29,397 bases of DNA from a virus: positions 1-29,397 of IMG/VR virus record IMGVR_UViG_3300025286_000091. One strand, 5' to 3'. Below, piece by piece: positions 783 to 27,637 of this stretch (positions are counted from its first letter, which is position 1; each line of letters opens with the position of its first letter). A program made the translations under genes and the position numbers. The notes below the pieces were generated by a model. That model saw nothing but the letters and a program-made list of their open reading frames with translations. It did no database searches and was not told the origin of the DNA.

Positions 783-840
783 TTGCTTTCTTCTTCTTGC
801 TTTCTTCTTCTTGCTTTCTTCTTCTTGCTTTCTTTCTTTC
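783..840 (+). repeat. 14-bp polypyrimidine tandem repeat, about 4 copies
   Basis: Three perfect copies of TTGCTTTCTTCTTC (783-796, 797-810, 811-824) and a fourth that diverges after ten bases (825-840). Apart from one G per unit the strand is entirely pyrimidine. The 14-nt block CTTTCTTCTTGGGG at 836-849 recurs exactly at 897-910, and a related CTTTCTTTCTTAC lies at 927-939. A 14-bp period is not a codon multiple, which argues against selection as protein-coding sequence. Confidence 0.85.
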
Positions 841-989
841 TTCTTGGGGTGGTGACTATAATAAATAAGAGCAGGGCGATTAACAGTATATTCTTCCTTT
901 CTTCTTGGGGGGTGTGGCTTGGTGGTCTTTCTTTCTTACTTGATGAGTACTACTTCACAGATTTAAAATCTTATGTACAATATCTTAGT

Positions 990-2408
990 ATGGACACCAC
1001 TACGAGGGATAAGTTACTAGCTCAGATGCGCTTAAAGCCTACTGAGGCGCAGTTAACGATATTGGATGATGCTGCACGCTATAAGTTGGTAGCTGGTGGT
1101 ATAAGAGGTGGTAAGAGCAGATTGGCTGCTGCTTATCTTACTGTTAAGATTTTAGAGAGTATTGCGAATAAGACTGCTAATCCGGGTGATATATATTGGC
1201 TGGTTGCTGCTGATTATGAGAGAACCAGGGCAGAATTTAATTATATTGGTACTGATTTAAGTAACCTAGGCCTTTTGGGAGAGATGAGCAAGCCTATTAA
1301 CCCCGGAATTTTAAGATTAAATGTATGTGTATGTGGCGAAGCTAGGTGTAATCACGAAAGGATAGCTGTAAAGACCAAATCTGCTAGTGATTTTAAGAGT
1401 TTGGCTATGGAGGCTCCCAGAGGAATTGTGGCTTGCGAGGCATCTCAGTTGGATTTGGAGAGTTTTTGGAGGCTGGAGGAGAGATTGGTAGAGGCAAGAG
1501 GGTGGTTGATGCTTGAAGGTACTTTTGAAAGTAGCCTTGGATGGTATCCTGAGAAATATATACATTGGTCCTCTCCTGCTGTCCAGAACTCTGAAAACGT
1601 AAAGAGCTTCTCCCTCCCAACGTGGACTAATACGGAACTGTTTCCTGGTGGCAGGGAGGATCCTGAGATAGTTAAGCTGGAAAATACGCACAGCGAGTCG
1701 TGGTTTATGGAAAGATTTGCCGGTGTGCCTAGTCCTCCGAAGGGAAGGGTACACGAAATGTTTAGGAATGAGGTTCATATACAGGATGTGGACTTTGTAG
1801 AGGGTGTCCCTGTGTATGTCTGGGTGGATCCGGGATATTCGAGAGCTACGGATTCGGCTTATGCTGTGGAGTTTGCTCAGATTATTGACGGGCAGATCAG
1901 GGTATTTGATGAAATATACGAGCAGGAAAAGATCGGTCCTGAAATATGCCAGATAGCTATGACAAGAGCCTGGTGGAACAAGGCAGACAAGTACGGAGCC
2001 ATAGATCAGGCCGGTGCGCAGCATCAGGCAATGCCTTCTCAGGTTGAAGTGTGGCAGGAGCAGTCGGGATTGTATCTGCACCCGACTTATGTAAGAATTA
2101 TAGAAGGTGTTGAAAGATTCAATACGTTTTTAAAGATTGATCCTATTATGAAGGAACCCAAAATTGTTTTTTCACCTGACTGCAAAGGTGCGATAAGCGA
2201 ACTAGGAGGAGGCCCTAATCCCTTTAACGGACAGACCAAGGTTTACTCTTGGGCGACTGATCGTGAGGGCAACGTGCTAGGCACAACGCCCAGGGACAGG
2301 TATAATCACGCAGTAAAGGCTATAACTTATGGACTCATACACGAATTTGGTCACGCAAGGGAAGCAAGTTCCTATAGTCCGAGAGAACCATCAATATCAT
2401 ACTGGTAA
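990..2408 (+). CDS. terL: Terminase large subunit (DNA-packaging ATPase/nuclease)
   Basis: This is the motor that cuts concatemeric DNA and pumps it through the portal into the prohead. I chose the ATG at 990 (472 aa), because the upstream frame is low-complexity and the usual TerL opening (P-x-x-x-Q ... VAGGIRGGKS) follows about 20 residues after it. No clear Shine-Dalgarno site precedes this ATG. Visible motifs: Walker A GGIRGGKS (about residues 36-43), a Walker B-like GIVACEA with the catalytic Glu near 150, a coupling motif LMLEGTF, then an RNase H-like nuclease beginning WVDPGYS (Asp near 280), DEIYEQ (about 307) and a C-terminal NHAVKAITYGL helix. In that last motif a Lys stands where relatives often have the third acidic residue. 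Odd feature: a CxC-x4-CxH cluster (about 113-122) inside the ATPase domain could bind zinc. No small subunit is recognisable nearby. The portal gene follows after 3 nt. Confidence 0.93.
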   Translation: MDTTTRDKLLAQMRLKPTEAQLTILDDAARYKLVAGGIRGGKSRLAAAYLTVKILESIANKTANPGDIYWLVAADYERTRAEFNYIGTDLSNLGLLGEMSKPINPGILRLNVCVCGEARCNHERIAVKTKSASDFKSLAMEAPRGIVACEASQLDLESFWRLEERLVEARGWLMLEGTFESSLGWYPEKYIHWSSPAVQNSENVKSFSLPTWTNTELFPGGREDPEIVKLENTHSESWFMERFAGVPSPPKGRVHEMFRNEVHIQDVDFVEGVPVYVWVDPGYSRATDSAYAVEFAQIIDGQIRVFDEIYEQEKIGPEICQIAMTRAWWNKADKYGAIDQAGAQHQAMPSQVEVWQEQSGLYLHPTYVRIIEGVERFNTFLKIDPIMKEPKIVFSPDCKGAISELGGGPNPFNGQTKVYSWATDREGNVLGTTPRDRYNHAVKAITYGLIHEFGHAREASSYSPREPSISYW

Positions 2409-4299: not shown

Positions 4300-6102
4300 A
4301 TGGCTTTATATACAGTCACATTAGACAATAACAGAACTTATGAAATTGAAGCAGACAGTCAAGCTGAAGCAACAAGATTAGCTAATGAAACTGCACAAGA
4401 ATCTGGAGCAAATGTTCTCTCAGTTTCATTTACGTCACAACCAGTAACAGCTCCAACTGGCCAGCCTAGTGTCTTGGATGCAGCAGACGAAGCATTGCCA
4501 CAACTTGCTGGAACGGCACCAACAGAAAAAATATATAATACTTCAGGTCCTATTGCTTTAAAAGGAACAGAATCAGAACCATATTTGCTAATTGGTGACA
4601 CAAAAATTGAAGCAACCCCATCAATGGGTAAATTCTATGAATATTTAGAAAATAGTTTGCCTAATAAATTACTTGGACAACTAGCTCCGATTGCAGTACA
4701 AGCTGGTAAAAAAATTGGCAAATTAACAATCGAAGGTCTAACAAATTCTCCGGCTTTTGGTCCATTCGTACAGCAAGCAGGAGAATCAGAACCAAATTTT
4801 TCAGGTTTTCTACAAAGAGCTATAGCAGAATCTATGGGGATGCAAGGTGGTTATGGAGCAGCAACTCCGGGATTTGCAGGAGGACCTGTGGATTATGGAG
4901 TAGCAACTCCGGGATTTGCAGGAGCTACAGGATTACCAGGCTATCCAGGAACTGCAGGAACGGCAGCAGACCTTGAAAATAGGTACGTTCAGGCAGGATT
5001 AGTACCGGGAACAGGCCCTATGTTCGATGTACCTCCTAATTTTGCAGCGCCAAGCGTGGCAGCGCCACCATCCGATTTCGCTGGACCACAACCTTATGGA
5101 CCAGCCATACCAGGTTTTGCAGCGCCACCATCCGATTTCGCTGGACCACAACCTTATGGACCAGCCATACCAGGTTTTGCAGCGCCACCATCCGATTTCG
5201 CTGGACCACAACCTTATGGACCAGCCATACCAGGTTTTGCAGGCCCAGGGGGAGCAGTTGTAACTCCACCGACAGTTGTAACTCCATCGTCAGTTGTACC
5301 TCCATCGGGAGGTGATCCTTTTATTTTACCACCCCCATCAGGAGGCTTTGTTTCTACTGCGCCAGCCAAAATGGTTCCTCCTGAAGGTCTAGCTACTGCA
5401 CAAGGACCATTGCCAACAGTACCAGATATTCCATTATCTGAACTGGATCCGTATGGAGCTTATCAGCGAGCATTGGGTTTAGGGAGCTTACCAATGACTA
5501 ATCCATACAGAAAATATTTAGAAAGAGATTGGACATATCAAGGTTTTCGTCTGCCTTATGAATTTGGAAGGGCATTTGACACAAAAGATATAAGTGGGCT
5601 AACCGATCCGAAGGGATTACCTGGTGAGGCACCTGGTTTTGGATCTTGGGTTCAGCAAGTTGGATCTCCACTAGCTGCAAGAAATTTAGCTGGATCGGTA
5701 TTTAGGAATGTAGTAGGTGGGGAAGCTGGTCCAGAATTTCAAAACGTATTAGGTGGTCCATACAGACAAGAGGCTCTTGATCCTGAAACTGGTATGCCTC
5801 GTATTCGTATTGATCCTGAAACTGGTGAGTCAATTCCAGGAATTGGAGCTTACCAGCCTAGAACTTGGGGGTTGTTAGATGAGCCTGAACAAACATTTTT
5901 AGGGCGATTAGCTGGGTTAGGCCATACTGCTTTACAAGGTAGAATGGGTAGCGCAGGTTATAATTTAATAAAGGATCTGCTTCCTGGCGTAAGTCAACTT
6001 TACAATCAATATTTCGATCAAGCACAACGTGGGCAACAGGTAGCTCCTAGTTTTGGAACTTATTTACAAGGCGCATACGGACTGAATCCGTATGGAGCTT
6101 AA
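4300..6102 (+). CDS. Pro/Gly/Ala-rich virion protein with 20-residue repeats (600 aa), unknown
   Basis: I do not recognise the whole protein. The first 45 residues (MALYTVTLDNNRTYEIEADS...) look like a small beta/alpha domain often seen at the start of phage virion proteins. Residues 63-70 are DEALPQLA, a motif shared with the 2098-aa protein two genes downstream. The middle (about 180-350) is low-complexity, with degenerate ATPGFAG elements followed by three identical 20-residue units (APPSDFAGPQPYGPAIPGFA). The last 60 residues resemble the C-terminus of the next gene's product. It lies between portal and scaffold with the 112-aa and 2098-aa genes; together they are plausible internal or ejection proteins. 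A Shine-Dalgarno-like AAGAGGAT precedes the ATG. Confidence 0.8.
   Translation: MALYTVTLDNNRTYEIEADSQAEATRLANETAQESGANVLSVSFTSQPVTAPTGQPSVLDAADEALPQLAGTAPTEKIYNTSGPIALKGTESEPYLLIGDTKIEATPSMGKFYEYLENSLPNKLLGQLAPIAVQAGKKIGKLTIEGLTNSPAFGPFVQQAGESEPNFSGFLQRAIAESMGMQGGYGAATPGFAGGPVDYGVATPGFAGATGLPGYPGTAGTAADLENRYVQAGLVPGTGPMFDVPPNFAAPSVAAPPSDFAGPQPYGPAIPGFAAPPSDFAGPQPYGPAIPGFAAPPSDFAGPQPYGPAIPGFAGPGGAVVTPPTVVTPSSVVPPSGGDPFILPPPSGGFVSTAPAKMVPPEGLATAQGPLPTVPDIPLSELDPYGAYQRALGLGSLPMTNPYRKYLERDWTYQGFRLPYEFGRAFDTKDISGLTDPKGLPGEAPGFGSWVQQVGSPLAARNLAGSVFRNVVGGEAGPEFQNVLGGPYRQEALDPETGMPRIRIDPETGESIPGIGAYQPRTWGLLDEPEQTFLGRLAGLGHTALQGRMGSAGYNLIKDLLPGVSQLYNQYFDQAQRGQQVAPSFGTYLQGAYGLNPYGA
5059..5242 (+). repeat. 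Perfect 60-bp in-frame tandem triplication
   Basis: Units 5059-5118, 5119-5178 and 5179-5238 are identical base for base, and a fourth begins and breaks off after four bases. Because 60 is a multiple of three, the repeat is phase-neutral and keeps four reading frames open, which creates several false ORFs on both strands. The lack of even synonymous differences points to recent slippage or recombination, unless it is an assembly artefact. Confidence 0.95.
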
Positions 6103-23940: not shown

Positions 23941-24019
23941 GAAAGGTAAGACTAAAAAATATCCTTATACCAAAAAAGGAAAGGCAGCTTATAAAGCTGC
24001 TAAAAGGAGAAAACGGTAA
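23921..24019 (+). CDS. Tiny strongly basic protein (32 aa)
   Basis: The ATG at 23921 follows AAAGGAG with a 7-nt spacer, in the +1 frame relative to the gene it overlaps. The product has about half Lys/Arg and contains KKYPYTKKGKAAYKAAKRR. A Y/F-P-Y-T-x-x-G-x-x-A-A motif of this kind recurs in tiny basic proteins of many phage genomes as I remember them, with unknown function. DNA or RNA binding is likely from the charge alone. Its stop overlaps the next start (TAATG). Size, Shine-Dalgarno site and the double overlap argue that it is real. Confidence 0.75.
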   Translation: MPKLKTKKGKTKKYPYTKKGKAAYKAAKRRKR

Positions 24020-24240
24020 TGAAATTATTTACATCTTTAATGCCGTTGATTCCACAACCATATAAAAACATAATTAAGTTTTTTATAAAGGTTCTGGATA
24101 ACGTAAATTCTAAAGAAGAATTAATCAGGATAGCTAAAAAATTTGAAGATATAACCAGGGATGACAAAATTACTGTACCTGAGTGGACTGAACTAGGTGG
24201 GAAAAAGTACCTAGGTATATTAGGTGGCAGTAAGAAATAG
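24019..24240 (+). CDS. Small hypothetical protein near the holin-like gene (73 aa)
   Basis: It starts in the previous stop (TAATG) with AAAAGGAG upstream. Residues about 1-27 are moderately hydrophobic and basic (LFTSLMPLIPQPYKNIIKFFIKVL) and may lie on the membrane. The rest is helical and charged, ending WTELGGKKYLGILGGSKK. It shares its last G with the GTG of the two-helix membrane protein. A lysis-associated function is possible from the neighbourhood, not from a known family. Confidence 0.65.
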   Translation: MKLFTSLMPLIPQPYKNIIKFFIKVLDNVNSKEELIRIAKKFEDITRDDKITVPEWTELGGKKYLGILGGSKK

Positions 24241-24413
24241 TGGGGAAGCTCAGGCCTCAGATCCTTACAGCTATTCTCTGTGCAACTTTCTTCAGCATTG
24301 TCGCTATATGGATAGGTTGGCAAATGGAAGCAACGGAAATAATTACAGCAGTAATCGGTGGAATATTTGGATTTTTGGGTGGTGTATCATTAAAGGTACT
24401 TGAAAATGAGTGA
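24240..24413 (+). CDS. Two-helix membrane protein, holin candidate (57 aa)
   Basis: The GTG start shares its first base with the upstream TAG. The product has a short basic N-terminus (MGKLRPQ), a first membrane helix (about residues 8-27, with LCATFFSIVAIWIGW), a two- to three-residue acidic turn (MEATE) and a second helix (about 34-53, IITAVIGGIFGFLGGVSL), ending in a charged tail. This is the topology of small class II holins, which open the cytoplasmic membrane at lysis. No endolysin is adjacent, so the call is tentative. The end overlaps the next small gene by 8 nt. Confidence 0.55.
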   Translation: MGKLRPQILTAILCATFFSIVAIWIGWQMEATEIITAVIGGIFGFLGGVSLKVLENE

Positions 24414-24659: not shown

Positions 24660-25106
24660 ATGGATATACAGATTGGAAAAAATAAGTATAAGCTGACTAT
24701 TGGTCTTGTAGTAGCAGTAGGAACCTTCGTAGTAGGTTCTATCTCTTGGGTGTTATCACTTCAGATGTCAGTAGAGAGTACCAAACTAGAAATTGAGGAA
24801 CTTAAAGCACAGGTAAGCTCTATACAGATGCCCGACACTACTCCTCTTGAAACCAAAGACACAGAGATGGAAACCAAGATAATGTGGATGATGGAGGAAT
24901 GGTCACCTAAGATGGAGAAACTAGACGAAAAGCTAGATGACTTTGATGACAGGCTTTCCGAAATAGAAGGCACTCAAAGAGTAATAGAAAATGAGATGCG
25001 TTCAATAATGTCAGACCATTCAGGATTCGCAGATGTACTCAGGCAACTGGAACTTTCAGGTGTACTGCCTTCGGGAGAGCGTAGACAATATGGCAATTAC
25101 GATTGA
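24660..25106 (+). CDS. Membrane-anchored coiled-coil protein, i-spanin-like (148 aa)
   Basis: A short cytoplasmic start (MDIQIGKNKYK) is followed by one membrane helix (about residues 12-34, with GLVVAVGTFVVGSISWVLSL). A long periplasm-facing coiled coil follows (about 35-125: TKLEIEELKAQVSS ... MEKLDEKLDDFDDRLSEIE), and then a short tail. This matches the layout of inner-membrane spanins, which fuse inner and outer membranes at the end of lysis in Gram-negative hosts. No partner lipoprotein gene is seen, and no Shine-Dalgarno site is obvious. Another membrane-tethered coiled-coil role is possible. Confidence 0.55.
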   Translation: MDIQIGKNKYKLTIGLVVAVGTFVVGSISWVLSLQMSVESTKLEIEELKAQVSSIQMPDTTPLETKDTEMETKIMWMMEEWSPKMEKLDEKLDDFDDRLSEIEGTQRVIENEMRSIMSDHSGFADVLRQLELSGVLPSGERRQYGNYD

Positions 25107-25110
25107 TAAC

Positions 25111-25130
25111 CTATGTTGTCCTATGTTGTC
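25111..25130 (+). repeat. Direct repeat of CTATGTTGTC
   Basis: Two adjacent identical 10-mers (25111-25120 and 25121-25130), with a third CTATG at 25134-25138. They lie just upstream of the promoter for the 25202 regulator, so they may be an activator or repressor site. Part of the unit (GTTGT) recurs in the palindrome at 25170-25184. Confidence 0.6.
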
Positions 25131-25150
25131 GATCTATGATAAATTTGTTT

Positions 25151-25161
25151 TATACTATAAT
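25151..25161 (+). promoter_or_regulatory. Promoter -10 region for the HTH gene
   Basis: TATACT (25151-25156) overlaps a perfect TATAAT (25156-25161). TTGTCG (25126-25131, part of the direct repeat) could serve as a weak -35 for the first of these with a 19-bp spacer. Transcription would start near 25163-25168, just before or within the palindrome. Confidence 0.5.
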
Positions 25162-25169
25162 ACAAACTG

Positions 25170-25184
25170 TACAACTAAGTTGTA
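25170..25184 (+). promoter_or_regulatory. 15-bp palindrome, likely operator
   Basis: TACAACT-A-AGTTGTA is a perfect dyad with 7-bp arms around one central base. It covers the expected transcription start region and ends 17 bp before the HTH gene, the usual place for an autoregulatory operator. As RNA it would have too short a loop for a full-length hairpin, so a protein site is more likely. Confidence 0.5.
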
Positions 25185-25201: not shown

Positions 25202-25435
25202 ATGACAGCAACACTAGAACAATTTTTCTTTAGACCACAGCAAGTAGCTGATGTCTTAGGGGTCAGTCGATCCGAAATTTATAAGCTTCTGAAAGCAAAC
25301 AAGCTAACATCAATATTAGATGGTAAAAAACGACTAGTCCCTAAAGCTTCTTTAATGAACTACGTTAACAGCCTAAATGCTCGAGCTACGAGGTATCAAG
25401 CTTCTTTTAAGAATGAAAAAAACAAGGAAAACTAA
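25202..25435 (+). CDS. Excisionase/MerR-like helix-turn-helix DNA-binding protein (77 aa)
   Basis: Residues 10-55 form a helix_turn_helix_17-type domain: FRPQQVADVLGVSRSEIYKL (helices one and two), then KANKLTSILDGKKRLVPKAS with the small wing, then LMNYVNSL. Such proteins act as transcription regulators or recombination directionality factors. Here no integrase is seen, so regulation is favoured. It has its own promoter and an adjacent palindrome, suggesting autoregulation. The Shine-Dalgarno site is AAAAGGAT. A second protein of the same fold is encoded on the opposite strand at 27749-27940. Its 3' end overlaps a 34-residue membrane peptide gene. Confidence 0.85.
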   Translation: MTATLEQFFFRPQQVADVLGVSRSEIYKLLKANKLTSILDGKKRLVPKASLMNYVNSLNARATRYQASFKNEKNKEN

Positions 25436-25517
25436 TGGTAGAGTCCTTGTTATAACAGGCTTGTTGGCGATTACGTTGGCTGCGATAATAACTTTAGGAG
25501 AAGTCTACAGTAGATGA
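25413..25517 (+). CDS. 34-residue single-pass membrane peptide
   Basis: It begins inside the end of the HTH gene in another frame and ends with ATGA overlapping the next gene, a coupling arrangement like that of neighbouring genes. The product has a basic N-terminus (MKKTRKTNGR), one membrane helix (VLVITGLLAITLAAIITLG) and a short tail (EVYSR). A signal-peptide reading is possible, but the mature part would be nearly nothing. The Shine-Dalgarno site is weak (TTAAGA). Function unknown. Confidence 0.55.
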   Translation: MKKTRKTNGRVLVITGLLAITLAAIITLGEVYSR

Positions 25518-26776
25518 AAAGATTATATAAAATACTGGATGCCTTCTTATACGTAATTACATTCGTTATAGTAATCGCAGGAGCTATTGGCCTTAGTATC
25601 ACTCTAGTAAACCCTGTTAACTTATGGTGGGCAATGGCACCAGTACAGACTCCATTCGGAATCATTACATACTCTAGCGTTATGGAGTACCTGGCTTACT
25701 TCCAGGAATACTACTGGTTAAGCATCGCAATATCATCGTTCTTTATTGTTTTTGGGTACGTGATACACATTAGGAGCCTAAAAGCCGTCTATGAGGGTAT
25801 TAAAGCCTCCCCAAGGGCAATTCTTTATTCTCCCGTTACCTTTTATAAGGAACTTAAACTATTTAGGGACTGGCTTTTCAACAAGATAGAATATTTAAAT
25901 GGAGAATCTGCTAAGTGGCGTAGGTTCTTTACCGTACTAAAATCTCCGTATAGTTTGCTTAGAGCAATGGGATTGAATCCTCAAATGGCAATAGGTTTAC
26001 TGGTCGCAGGTGGTACAGCCACGACTGCTGTAACCGTAAACGAGTTGGTTCTTGAACGTAGCTTTAGCAATGGTAGTGCAGGAATATATGCAGCACCATC
26101 GGAGTTCCCTGACGAAGAACTGGAGAAAGAAATGGCGTGGCGTAAGGACAATCCCTCAGATAATACTTTAAGGATAGTTTTAGGTTCAACTAGCGTAGAA
26201 CTCATTAGCATTTCAGATGTAAGCATAGGTACTGCGTATACTGGGTCGGCATTACCTTCAGGTAAAGCTGAAGCAATTTTAATTGAGGGCAAGGCTGGTC
26301 AGGATGCAAGGTTAGAGATAGGGGAATTGATGTTTGAAAGGAATACCTGCAAGACTTTGACTCTAAGCGATATAAACGCACATAAGATAGTGATTGAATC
26401 AAATATAAGTGACGGACAATCTATCGCACAGACAATCGGAACTCAAAGAGATTTACGAATTTCAGGAGGCAACACGATGGCAAAAATTTTGGAAACTCAG
26501 GGCGGCACATATGACCGTATCCATCTTGATACAGGAGTCTTAACATCTACAAATGCCAAGATTAATAAACTGAATCTGTCAAACATTGTCAGCAAGGGTG
26601 GAACTTGTGTGCTTAGGAAAGCCGATATAGGTTTGCTCACGATTCAATATAACTCTACAGGACACGATTCAAATTTTGCTACGAAAGAATTTACAGTACA
26701 AAGTTCTACAGTCGCAAGTATATGGCAAGTAAACAACAACAGGGAGGTTCTTCTATCTGAGCCTGCTACGGAATAG
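25514..26776 (+). CDS. Three-helix membrane protein with beta-rich C-terminal domain (420 aa), unknown
   Basis: There are three hydrophobic segments: about residues 9-32 (LYVITFVIVIAGAIGLSITL), 68-86 (LSIAISSFFIVFGYVIHI) and a weaker one at 157-178 (MAIGLLVAGGTATTAVTV). Between the second and third is a basic, aromatic region. From about 215 to 420 the protein is made of short strands at fairly regular spacing (TLTLSDINAHKIVIES, RIHLDTGVLTSTNAKINKLN, LRKADIGLLTIQYN), as in a small right-handed beta-helix. I do not recognise a family. It sits after the lysis-like and regulator genes and is much larger than its neighbours. Superinfection exclusion, envelope remodelling or a host-surface display role are possible, none shown. 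Confidence 0.7.
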   Translation: MKRLYKILDAFLYVITFVIVIAGAIGLSITLVNPVNLWWAMAPVQTPFGIITYSSVMEYLAYFQEYYWLSIAISSFFIVFGYVIHIRSLKAVYEGIKASPRAILYSPVTFYKELKLFRDWLFNKIEYLNGESAKWRRFFTVLKSPYSLLRAMGLNPQMAIGLLVAGGTATTAVTVNELVLERSFSNGSAGIYAAPSEFPDEELEKEMAWRKDNPSDNTLRIVLGSTSVELISISDVSIGTAYTGSALPSGKAEAILIEGKAGQDARLEIGELMFERNTCKTLTLSDINAHKIVIESNISDGQSIAQTIGTQRDLRISGGNTMAKILETQGGTYDRIHLDTGVLTSTNAKINKLNLSNIVSKGGTCVLRKADIGLLTIQYNSTGHDSNFATKEFTVQSSTVASIWQVNNNREVLLSEPATE

Positions 26777-26778
26777 TT

Positions 26779-26937
26779 ATGCCTTCGTATGACTATATAT
26801 GTAATGTTGATGATTGCAAGGTAGACACCTTTGAAGTCCGAAAGGATACCTTTGAAGATACTGTTGAACGCTGCCCGAAGTGTGGATACCGGAGTAAAGA
26901 AAAAAAATCAGTTTATCAGTTCAGTTTTAGAATGTGA
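26779..26937 (+). CDS. FmdB-like zinc-ribbon protein (52 aa)
   Basis: The start MPSYDYICNVDDCKVDTFEV and the later CPKCGYRS match the small FmdB-type zinc ribbon (usually MPxYDYxCxxC ... CPxCG). Zinc ligands are Cys8, Cys13, Cys32 and Cys35, with a four-residue gap in the first pair instead of the usual two. The family is named as a putative regulator, but its biochemical role is not established. The gene lies two nt after the membrane-protein gene, and no Shine-Dalgarno site is clear. The promoter of the candidate RNA follows right after its stop. Confidence 0.75.
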   Translation: MPSYDYICNVDDCKVDTFEVRKDTFEDTVERCPKCGYRSKEKKSVYQFSFRM

Positions 26938-27081: not shown

Positions 27082-27637
27082 ATATCGGTACATTAGTTTT
27101 CTTCGGTTCATTTGGATTAGGTTGGAAAATCGTAGCTCCATCGCTATCTTCAATAACTACTTTAATAAAATCCTTTGACGTATCTACTGCCTTGCAATAG
27201 CCGTATTCTCTAATAACAATATCGTCTTTATATACAATGCCGTTAAAAATATCCTCGGTACTCTTGACTAAATTATTAAGGTCATAGTCCAAGACTGACT
27301 TAATTGCCCTCTTGTCTGTGCTGCCGTCTTTATTTCTTCTGGCATCCGGAGGAGCTGAAGCTATCCCTCCGAACTCGAATGATGCTCTGATATAAGTATT
27401 AATCAGGCCTTTAGTTTTGGACTGCCAAGCTACTCTTAAAGTGTCACGAATAACTTTACGCCATGCGTTGTACCTCCTGGCATTTTTATTGGTAAACCTA
27501 GATTTATAATTCTGCCTAGGTTGAGGCAAGGCCCTTTGCTCCGTAGTCAGTATAATCTTGGTATGCGATCTAGCAACAAGACTATCTTTCATAATGTCGC
27601 TGCTTCTCTCTACTTTAATATTCCACTCAGGATTCAT
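27080..27637 (-). CDS. rusA: RusA-like Holliday junction resolvase (185 aa)
   Basis: The family resolves four-way junctions, in phages before or during packaging. Visible signature (numbered from the upstream TTG at 27655, subtract 6 for my start): the opening strand PQPRQNYKSR, a helix YNAWRKVIRDTLR, then DYDLNNLVKSTEDIFNGIVY and KDDIVIREYGY. These match RusA's D-x-D-N-x-x-K ... D-x-L/F-N-G ... D-D pattern, except that the second Asp of the first motif is Asn here (D125, N127, K131, D144, D145). I start at the ATG at 27637 because AAAGGA lies properly upstream and it overlaps the previous stop by ATGA. The extra 25-30 N-terminal residues exceed the usual RusA length of about 120. Confidence 0.82.
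   Translation of the reverse strand: MNPEWNIKVERSSDIMKDSLVARSHTKIILTTEQRALPQPRQNYKSRFTNKNARRYNAWRKVIRDTLRVAWQSKTKGLINTYIRASFEFGGIASAPPDARRNKDGSTDKRAIKSVLDYDLNNLVKSTEDIFNGIVYKDDIVIREYGYCKAVDTSKDFIKVVIEDSDGATIFQPNPNEPKKTNVPI

Follow-up and report, generated by a model that had tools for sequence, protein, structure and literature searches.

What does a phage do with a 420-aa protein that combines membrane helices with a long, strand-rich C-terminal domain, and that is encoded where its structural genes end? This question is raised by a 29.4-kb virus record (29,397 nucleotides; the window, meaning the whole stretch of DNA that was analysed), in which the gene for this protein (the large gene, encoding the large protein) closes the late (structural) module.

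The gene pair, its neighbours and the protein family

The structural genes and the genes for a 73-aa protein, a holin-like protein, a TM-coiled-coil protein and an HTH_17 protein are located upstream of a pair consisting of a 34-aa peptide gene and the large gene. A zinc-ribbon gene follows the pair, and after it come genes on the opposite strand, including those for a RusA-like resolvase and a DNA methyltransferase. The genes around the pair are as follows.

24019-24240, + strand: 73-aa protein, a neighbour in the family (related proteins at 10 of 72 non-redundant loci)
24240-24413, + strand: holin-like two-TM protein with an RPQ motif (phrog_785, E 2.8e-6)
24660-25106, + strand: TM and coiled-coil protein, a neighbour in the family (kin near the large gene at 16 of 72 non-redundant loci)
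25202-25435, + strand: HTH_17 gene, outside the conserved unit (Pfam E 3.6e-9; only in the window and L012)
25413-25517, + strand: 34-aa single-TM peptide (TM at 11-29 by hydropathy; its stop overlaps the next start, ATGA)
25514-26776, + strand: 420-aa membrane protein with a predicted C-terminal beta-solenoid ectodomain (at least 215 relatives in IMG/VR; AlphaFold2 mean pLDDT 84)
26779-26937, + strand: zinc-ribbon protein, a frequent downstream neighbour (Zn_ribbon_8 E 3.7e-5, below the curated cut-off; 9 of 72 non-redundant loci)

The start codon of the 34-aa peptide (MKKTRKTNGRVLVITGLLAITLAAIITLGEVYSR) falls within the 3' end of the HTH ORF, and the stop/start overlap of the peptide with the 420-aa ORF is four bases long. 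The peptide is found upstream in all 38 loci in which the large protein is more than 52% identical to that of the window (37 loci by script and the 38th, L013, by inspection, since the choice of start codon had hidden the peptide there), and the pair occurs on at least two phage backbones. In this group the peptide has a single TM and ends in GE plus a few residues. The four-base overlap is present in 12 loci, most of the others have a spacing within a few tens of bases, and in L002 the peptide ends 334 bases before the large-gene start codon used. In the 28-aa homologue group, the peptide frame has a pN/pS of 0.44 and the two alternative frames have values of 0.77 and 1.91, which indicates that the peptide is under purifying selection. 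None of the 109 relatives below 52% identity has a peptide of this type; many have another small TM protein upstream instead. Thus, the coupling of the large protein to a tiny single-helix peptide, described in an earlier note on this DNA, is confirmed, and the co-occurrence of the two elsewhere holds among relatives above 52% identity and fails below it. The same note had joined regulator, peptide and large protein into one set and had likened this set to a moron. Neither suggestion was borne out: the HTH gene is present only in the window and in the closely similar record L012, so that the triad is local, and the large gene occupies a late-module position by the holin-like gene on several phage backbones, along which the HTH gene does not travel.

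Searches of 2.9 million IMG/VR contigs, begun with the window protein and repeated with successively larger alignments, raised the number of homologues from 16 to 89 and then to 215 loci, which is a lower bound; 72 non-redundant members share 37-77% identity with the large protein of the window. The 50,697 phage records, searched as DNA and as protein with the window protein and a distant member as queries, yielded no homologue, and no cellular copy or prophage was found in 84,980 bacterial and archaeal genomes using a pattern search and tblastn. A profile of the family had no match in 393 Dehalococcoidia genomes and was positive in 15 of 28 virus records. Above threshold, the large protein of the window matched none of the Pfam and PHROG families, and the PDB gave no credible match by sequence. 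Over 43 members, the Pfam and PHROG matches were scattered and weak, each common to at most four members, as for PHROG 'tail collar' (four members, best E 0.0045). No peptidoglycan-cutting Pfam or PHROG domain was present in these 43 members, on which ground we rejected the large protein as an endolysin. Judged by these comparisons, the large protein is the representative of a previously undescribed, widespread family. Moreover, the large gene recurs across several phage types with different head and packaging genes, and it is present in 11 of 16 records of at least 30 kb that were picked solely by their holin-like gene; it thus behaves as a near-core late gene.

Topology, fold and exchange of the C-terminal domain

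Within the large protein the following parts were distinguished, the last line being the segment that differs in L012.

25553-25609, + strand: TM1, residues 14-32 (hydropathy 2.65; AlphaFold2 helix 2-32)
25715-25771, + strand: TM2, residues 68-86 (hydropathy 1.93; AlphaFold2 helix 67-85)
25778-25966, + strand: basic conserved helix, predicted cytoplasmic, residues 89-151 (FRDWLFNKIEYLNGESAKW; charge, conservation and AlphaFold2 helix)
25982-26053, + strand: weak TM3, residues about 157-180 (hydropathy about 1.4; model confidence low at 167-179)
26081-26734, + strand: predicted extracytoplasmic beta-solenoid strands, residues 190-407 (AlphaFold2; invariant Cys279 and Cys365)
25945-26778, + strand: segment with a 61%-identical allele in L012 (pairwise comparison; surrounding genomes about 99.98% identical)

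The three membrane helices and the strand-rich C-terminus that the earlier note had read from the sequence stand, in that TM1 and TM2 are clear and TM3 is weak by hydropathy, and the AlphaFold2 model built with 72 diverse homologues places strands at residues 190-407, mostly at pLDDT 80-97. Its helices span residues 2-32, 53-65, 67-85, 89-151 and 156-167; the quality of a model from 12 sequences did not suffice for interpretation. Foldseek found no match for the model in the PDB at E up to 0.001, and no virion fold was matched by it in the PDB or among named viral structures, a possibility that the earlier note had raised against its own reading. In BFVD, five viral proteins were found as structural relatives at Foldseek E values of 4e-39 to 3e-11, all of them unnamed (A0A516MPL1, A0A1B1IQH1, A0A516L4T4, A0A1B1INJ4 and A0A1B1IS34); A0A1B1INJ4 and A0A1B1IS34 are shorter (285-292 aa) and 17-18% identical. 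Re-alignment within the VIA list of folds gave beta-rich matches that were mostly right-handed beta-helix proteins with weak Z scores of 2-3, including polygalacturonases and pectate lyases; the best alignments (RbmB lyase 9ozl, 6kve/7e56 and 1jrg) reached Z 2.0-3.0 over about 105-127 residues, which is within the chance range. Although the strand stacking is similar to that of right-handed beta-helix lyases and polygalacturonases, these share no sequence similarity with the ectodomain. A C-terminal 'solenoid' fold is supported by the predicted model.

There are three Lys/Arg residues before TM1, none between TM1 and TM2, and 13 between TM2 and TM3, from which an N-in, C-out topology is predicted. 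Cys279 and Cys365 are present in 72 of 72 members, and extra cysteine pairs, where present, are mostly in segments predicted to be outside. Because of the charge bias and the two invariant cysteines, the solenoid would be placed outside the cell, where Cys279 and Cys365 could form a disulfide in an outward ectodomain. A remote 296-aa homologue (L282, 3719-4609) consists of a basic tail, one TM (TM3 only) and the ectodomain, which points to one TM plus ectodomain as the core of the architecture; its gene is preceded by tail-region genes and the genes of two small TM proteins, and a nuclease gene and the holin-like gene follow. In addition, members of 358-361 aa in L038-L040, L068, L072 and L172 are without the first two membrane helices and keep the remainder; their anchor is different or reduced. 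A unimolecular spanin has an N-terminal lipobox and a C-terminal TM, linking the outer and inner membranes. The large protein begins with MKRLYKILDAF, has no lipobox and carries its TM helices in the N-terminal half, and we rejected it as such a spanin.

The C-terminal domain is also the part that varies between close relatives. Over 15.5-25.5 kb the window and L012 show 99.98% identity, and beyond 26.8 kb they again differ very little; in between, they diverge to 61% identity from base 25945 (residue 144) to base 26778, just past the stop codon, with the frame intact and the neighbouring tail genes unchanged. Conversely, L002 and L009 have different backbones and different N-terminal halves, and about 650 nt of ectodomain DNA is common to them at 97-100%. 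Family-wide, N- and C-terminal identities correlate at 0.49, and mismatches occur in either direction (39% versus 88% in L048/L120; 85% versus 40% in L074/L075). These comparisons indicate that viruses swap the ectodomain among themselves as a cassette. For the single pair of the window and L012 an assembly chimera is conceivable; we judge it unlikely because of the intact frame, the independent case of L002 and L009, and the disagreement between N- and C-terminal identities across the family. A second, small patch in which the window and L012 diverge is located at 27465-27581, inside the RusA-like resolvase gene.

Host and lysis context

A gene for a BMP/PnrA-type lipoprotein is located near the large gene in L006 (7098-8243) and also in L004, L005, L008, L017, L026 and L035, only on a backbone other than that of the window. 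In a tree of 85 sequences including five phage copies, the phage clade falls inside the Chloroflexota, within SAR202/Dehalococcoidia, and joins two Dehalococcoidia/Chloroflexi MAGs at 100/100 support. This lipoprotein can be regarded as a host marker and possibly as an auxiliary nutrient-uptake gene. None of the 14 closest MAGs has MraY, which is needed for peptidoglycan, and of the 18 Chloroflexota examined 15 lack it; all 10 other genomes have it. SAR202 bacteria abound in the dark ocean. They have been described as monoderm, without peptidoglycan synthesis and with an S-layer (PMC11994032, PMC10444878), and the loss of peptidoglycan predates the radiation of the marine Dehalococcoidia (PMC10284905). 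The ocean viruses carrying the family therefore probably infect SAR202 bacteria, and we infer through the shared gene family that the phage of the window also has a SAR202 host. Our literature search found no paper naming phages of SAR202; in a paper on deep-ocean phages most of these stay without an assigned host, and holins, lysis and membrane proteins are not discussed (PMC4981710). The terminase large subunit of the window (783-2408) is 23-26% identical to those of its nearest isolates, which are phages of Actinomycetota, and no isolated phage close to it was found; at this identity the pointer to an actinophage host is weak and was not used for host assignment.

As in the lysis modules of phages, a holin-like gene is adjacent at the end of the late genes. 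The 24240-24413 protein is called holin-like from a profile match (phrog_785). Holin-like genes are present in 26 of the 29 records carrying the large gene, and lie within 4 kb of it at 45 of 72 loci. A reverse search also found them without the large gene nearby, often adjoining terminase genes; since the holin-like gene is widespread and stands near terminase as well, the two genes are not strictly linked and the argument from adjacency to lysis becomes weaker. The holin-like family has at least 433 loci in IMG/VR and an invariant RPQ motif, is commoner than the large gene, and its genes are often beside another small TM protein ending in IPLQ. Searches for Amidase_2, Phage_lysozyme, SLT, CHAP, Peptidase_M23, Peptidase_M15_4 and NLPC_P60 gave no match in the 29 large-gene records, which are mostly fragments, while each of the seven was positive in control bacteria, the controls not being phages. 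Furthermore, when 124 proteins encoded in three records were compared with Pfam, replication, packaging and nucleotide genes came up, and no lysis enzyme was among the 25 families listed out of 41. The absence of an endolysin from the 29 mostly fragmentary records is suggestive.

Possible envelope opening and the competing readings

Taken together, the large protein may have a role at the cell surface, in opening it or in guarding it. Tentatively, and with less than even confidence, we favour the first, namely that it is a late membrane-anchored surface protein that helps to open a peptidoglycan-free, S-layered envelope. The protein would be anchored in the cytoplasmic membrane of the host by TM1, TM2 and the basic cytoplasmic helix, in the N-in, C-out orientation, and TM3 would connect this anchor to a beta-solenoid, stabilised by a disulfide, on the outside of a SAR202-type host cell. 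Together with the 34-aa peptide, the holin-like protein and the TM-coiled-coil protein, it would make up a joint envelope-opening module, standing where other phages have holin, endolysin and spanin. The small membrane proteins may permeabilise the membrane or act as a trigger, and the ectodomain may loosen the surface layer (S-layer). Where the host lacks peptidoglycan, an endolysin would be of no use, and an anchored outward domain disturbing the S-layer, along with permeabilising peptides, would serve. For this proposal the family, its position, topology, fold and ectodomain exchange, the peptidoglycan-free host of its relatives and the absence of seven endolysin families are supported by sequence or prediction; the late expression of the protein, its action in lysis and the target of its ectodomain are what we infer from them.

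We count in favour of envelope opening the location of the large gene where the structural module ends, next to a holin-like gene, the missing endolysin families, the nesting of the relatives' lipoproteins in SAR202 and the missing MraY, as well as a confidently modelled solenoid that is predicted to lie outside and the recurrence of the large gene on several phage backbones. Against it we count that the ectodomain has no enzyme or lysis signature, that the holin-like gene occurs elsewhere by terminase genes without the large gene, and that the SAR202 link comes from relatives with another backbone, with no copy of the family found in SAR202 genomes. A stronger form, in which small membrane peptides and an anchored, exchangeable beta-solenoid constitute a dedicated lysis or egress machine of these phages for peptidoglycan-free bacteria that opens the S-layer envelope and replaces holin, endolysin and spanin, appears possible to us, though somewhat doubtful. 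The surroundings of the large gene share with the holin-endolysin-spanin cassettes of tailed phages the place after the tail genes, the small membrane proteins and the holin-like neighbour, but differ in that no endolysin of the seven families was found and that the large protein has no lipobox or enzyme domain match.

PVAPs, the proteins of virus-associated pyramids, are about 10 kDa in size, with one N-terminal TM, a cytoplasmic C-terminal part and no ectodomain, and the hosts of the viruses are S-layered without peptidoglycan. The likeness to these proteins of archaeal viruses is by function only, in that a membrane protein is proposed to open an S-layered, peptidoglycan-free envelope without a wall enzyme (PMC12596118); the large protein, in contrast, has 420 aa, up to three TMs and a predicted ectodomain, and no homology was seen. 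Its size, TM number and predicted ectodomain led us to reject it as a PVAP.

Among the other explanations, superinfection exclusion survives best and seems unlikely rather than far-fetched. The displayed ectodomain would mask a receptor or block the DNA entry of competitors, and its alleles would be swapped as the competitors differ. The topology suits surface display; the ectodomain is swapped between the window and L012 amid tail genes that are about 99.98% identical, an exchange that competition between phages would explain no less well than a change of lysis target; and the ectodomain DNA of L002 and L009 is 97-100% identical on different backbones. However, exclusion genes are usually sporadic, whereas the large gene is near-core in several phage types and closes the late module together with holin-like genes. 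Membrane proteins of the T4 Imm type are likewise phage-coded and membrane-bound, but the large protein is much larger, has an exchangeable solenoid ectodomain, is near-core and matches no family. Position and host fit envelope opening better than superinfection exclusion. Another surface role, such as a decoy for host defence, adhesion between cells or protection of the infected cell, with an ectodomain that varies to escape recognition, is in our view less likely still: a predicted outward, disulfide-stabilised and diversifying domain would agree with it, as would the host-derived surface lipoprotein that phages of the group also carry, but no specific sign of such a role was seen, and it accounts for neither the conserved cytoplasmic helix nor the coupled membrane peptide. 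A virion protein, either tail-spike-like or an ejected membrane protein, with a constant N-terminal anchor and an exchangeable beta-helix, is improbable: its resemblance to tail spikes, its gene directly downstream of the tail genes and the weak 'tail collar' matches are opposed by clear TM helices, a positive-inside bias, the coupled TM peptide and the missing virion-fold match.

A family that recurs in such phages, and whose predicted outward domain is exchanged between otherwise nearly identical genomes, offers a handle in a SAR202-type setting either on phage competition or on lysis, where the question is how a phage escapes from a cell surrounded by an S-layer alone, with no peptidoglycan. 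If envelope opening is its function, the large protein would work like the pyramid proteins of archaeal viruses while differing in size and arrangement, and if it acts in the lysis of peptidoglycan-free bacteria, this would be a new kind of system. SAR202 strains are now in culture (PMC10444878), which makes the question testable.

Some further features of the window are worth recording. Within 25110-25183, upstream of the HTH gene, CCTATGTTGT occurs twice in tandem and is followed by a palindrome, ACAACTAAGTTGT, which is located directly 5' of this gene at 25171-25183 and could be its operator. Far upstream, the ORF at 4300-6102 contains a tandem repeat of about 20 residues, PPSDFAGPQPYGPAIPGFAA, in three near-identical copies at about 5000-5260.
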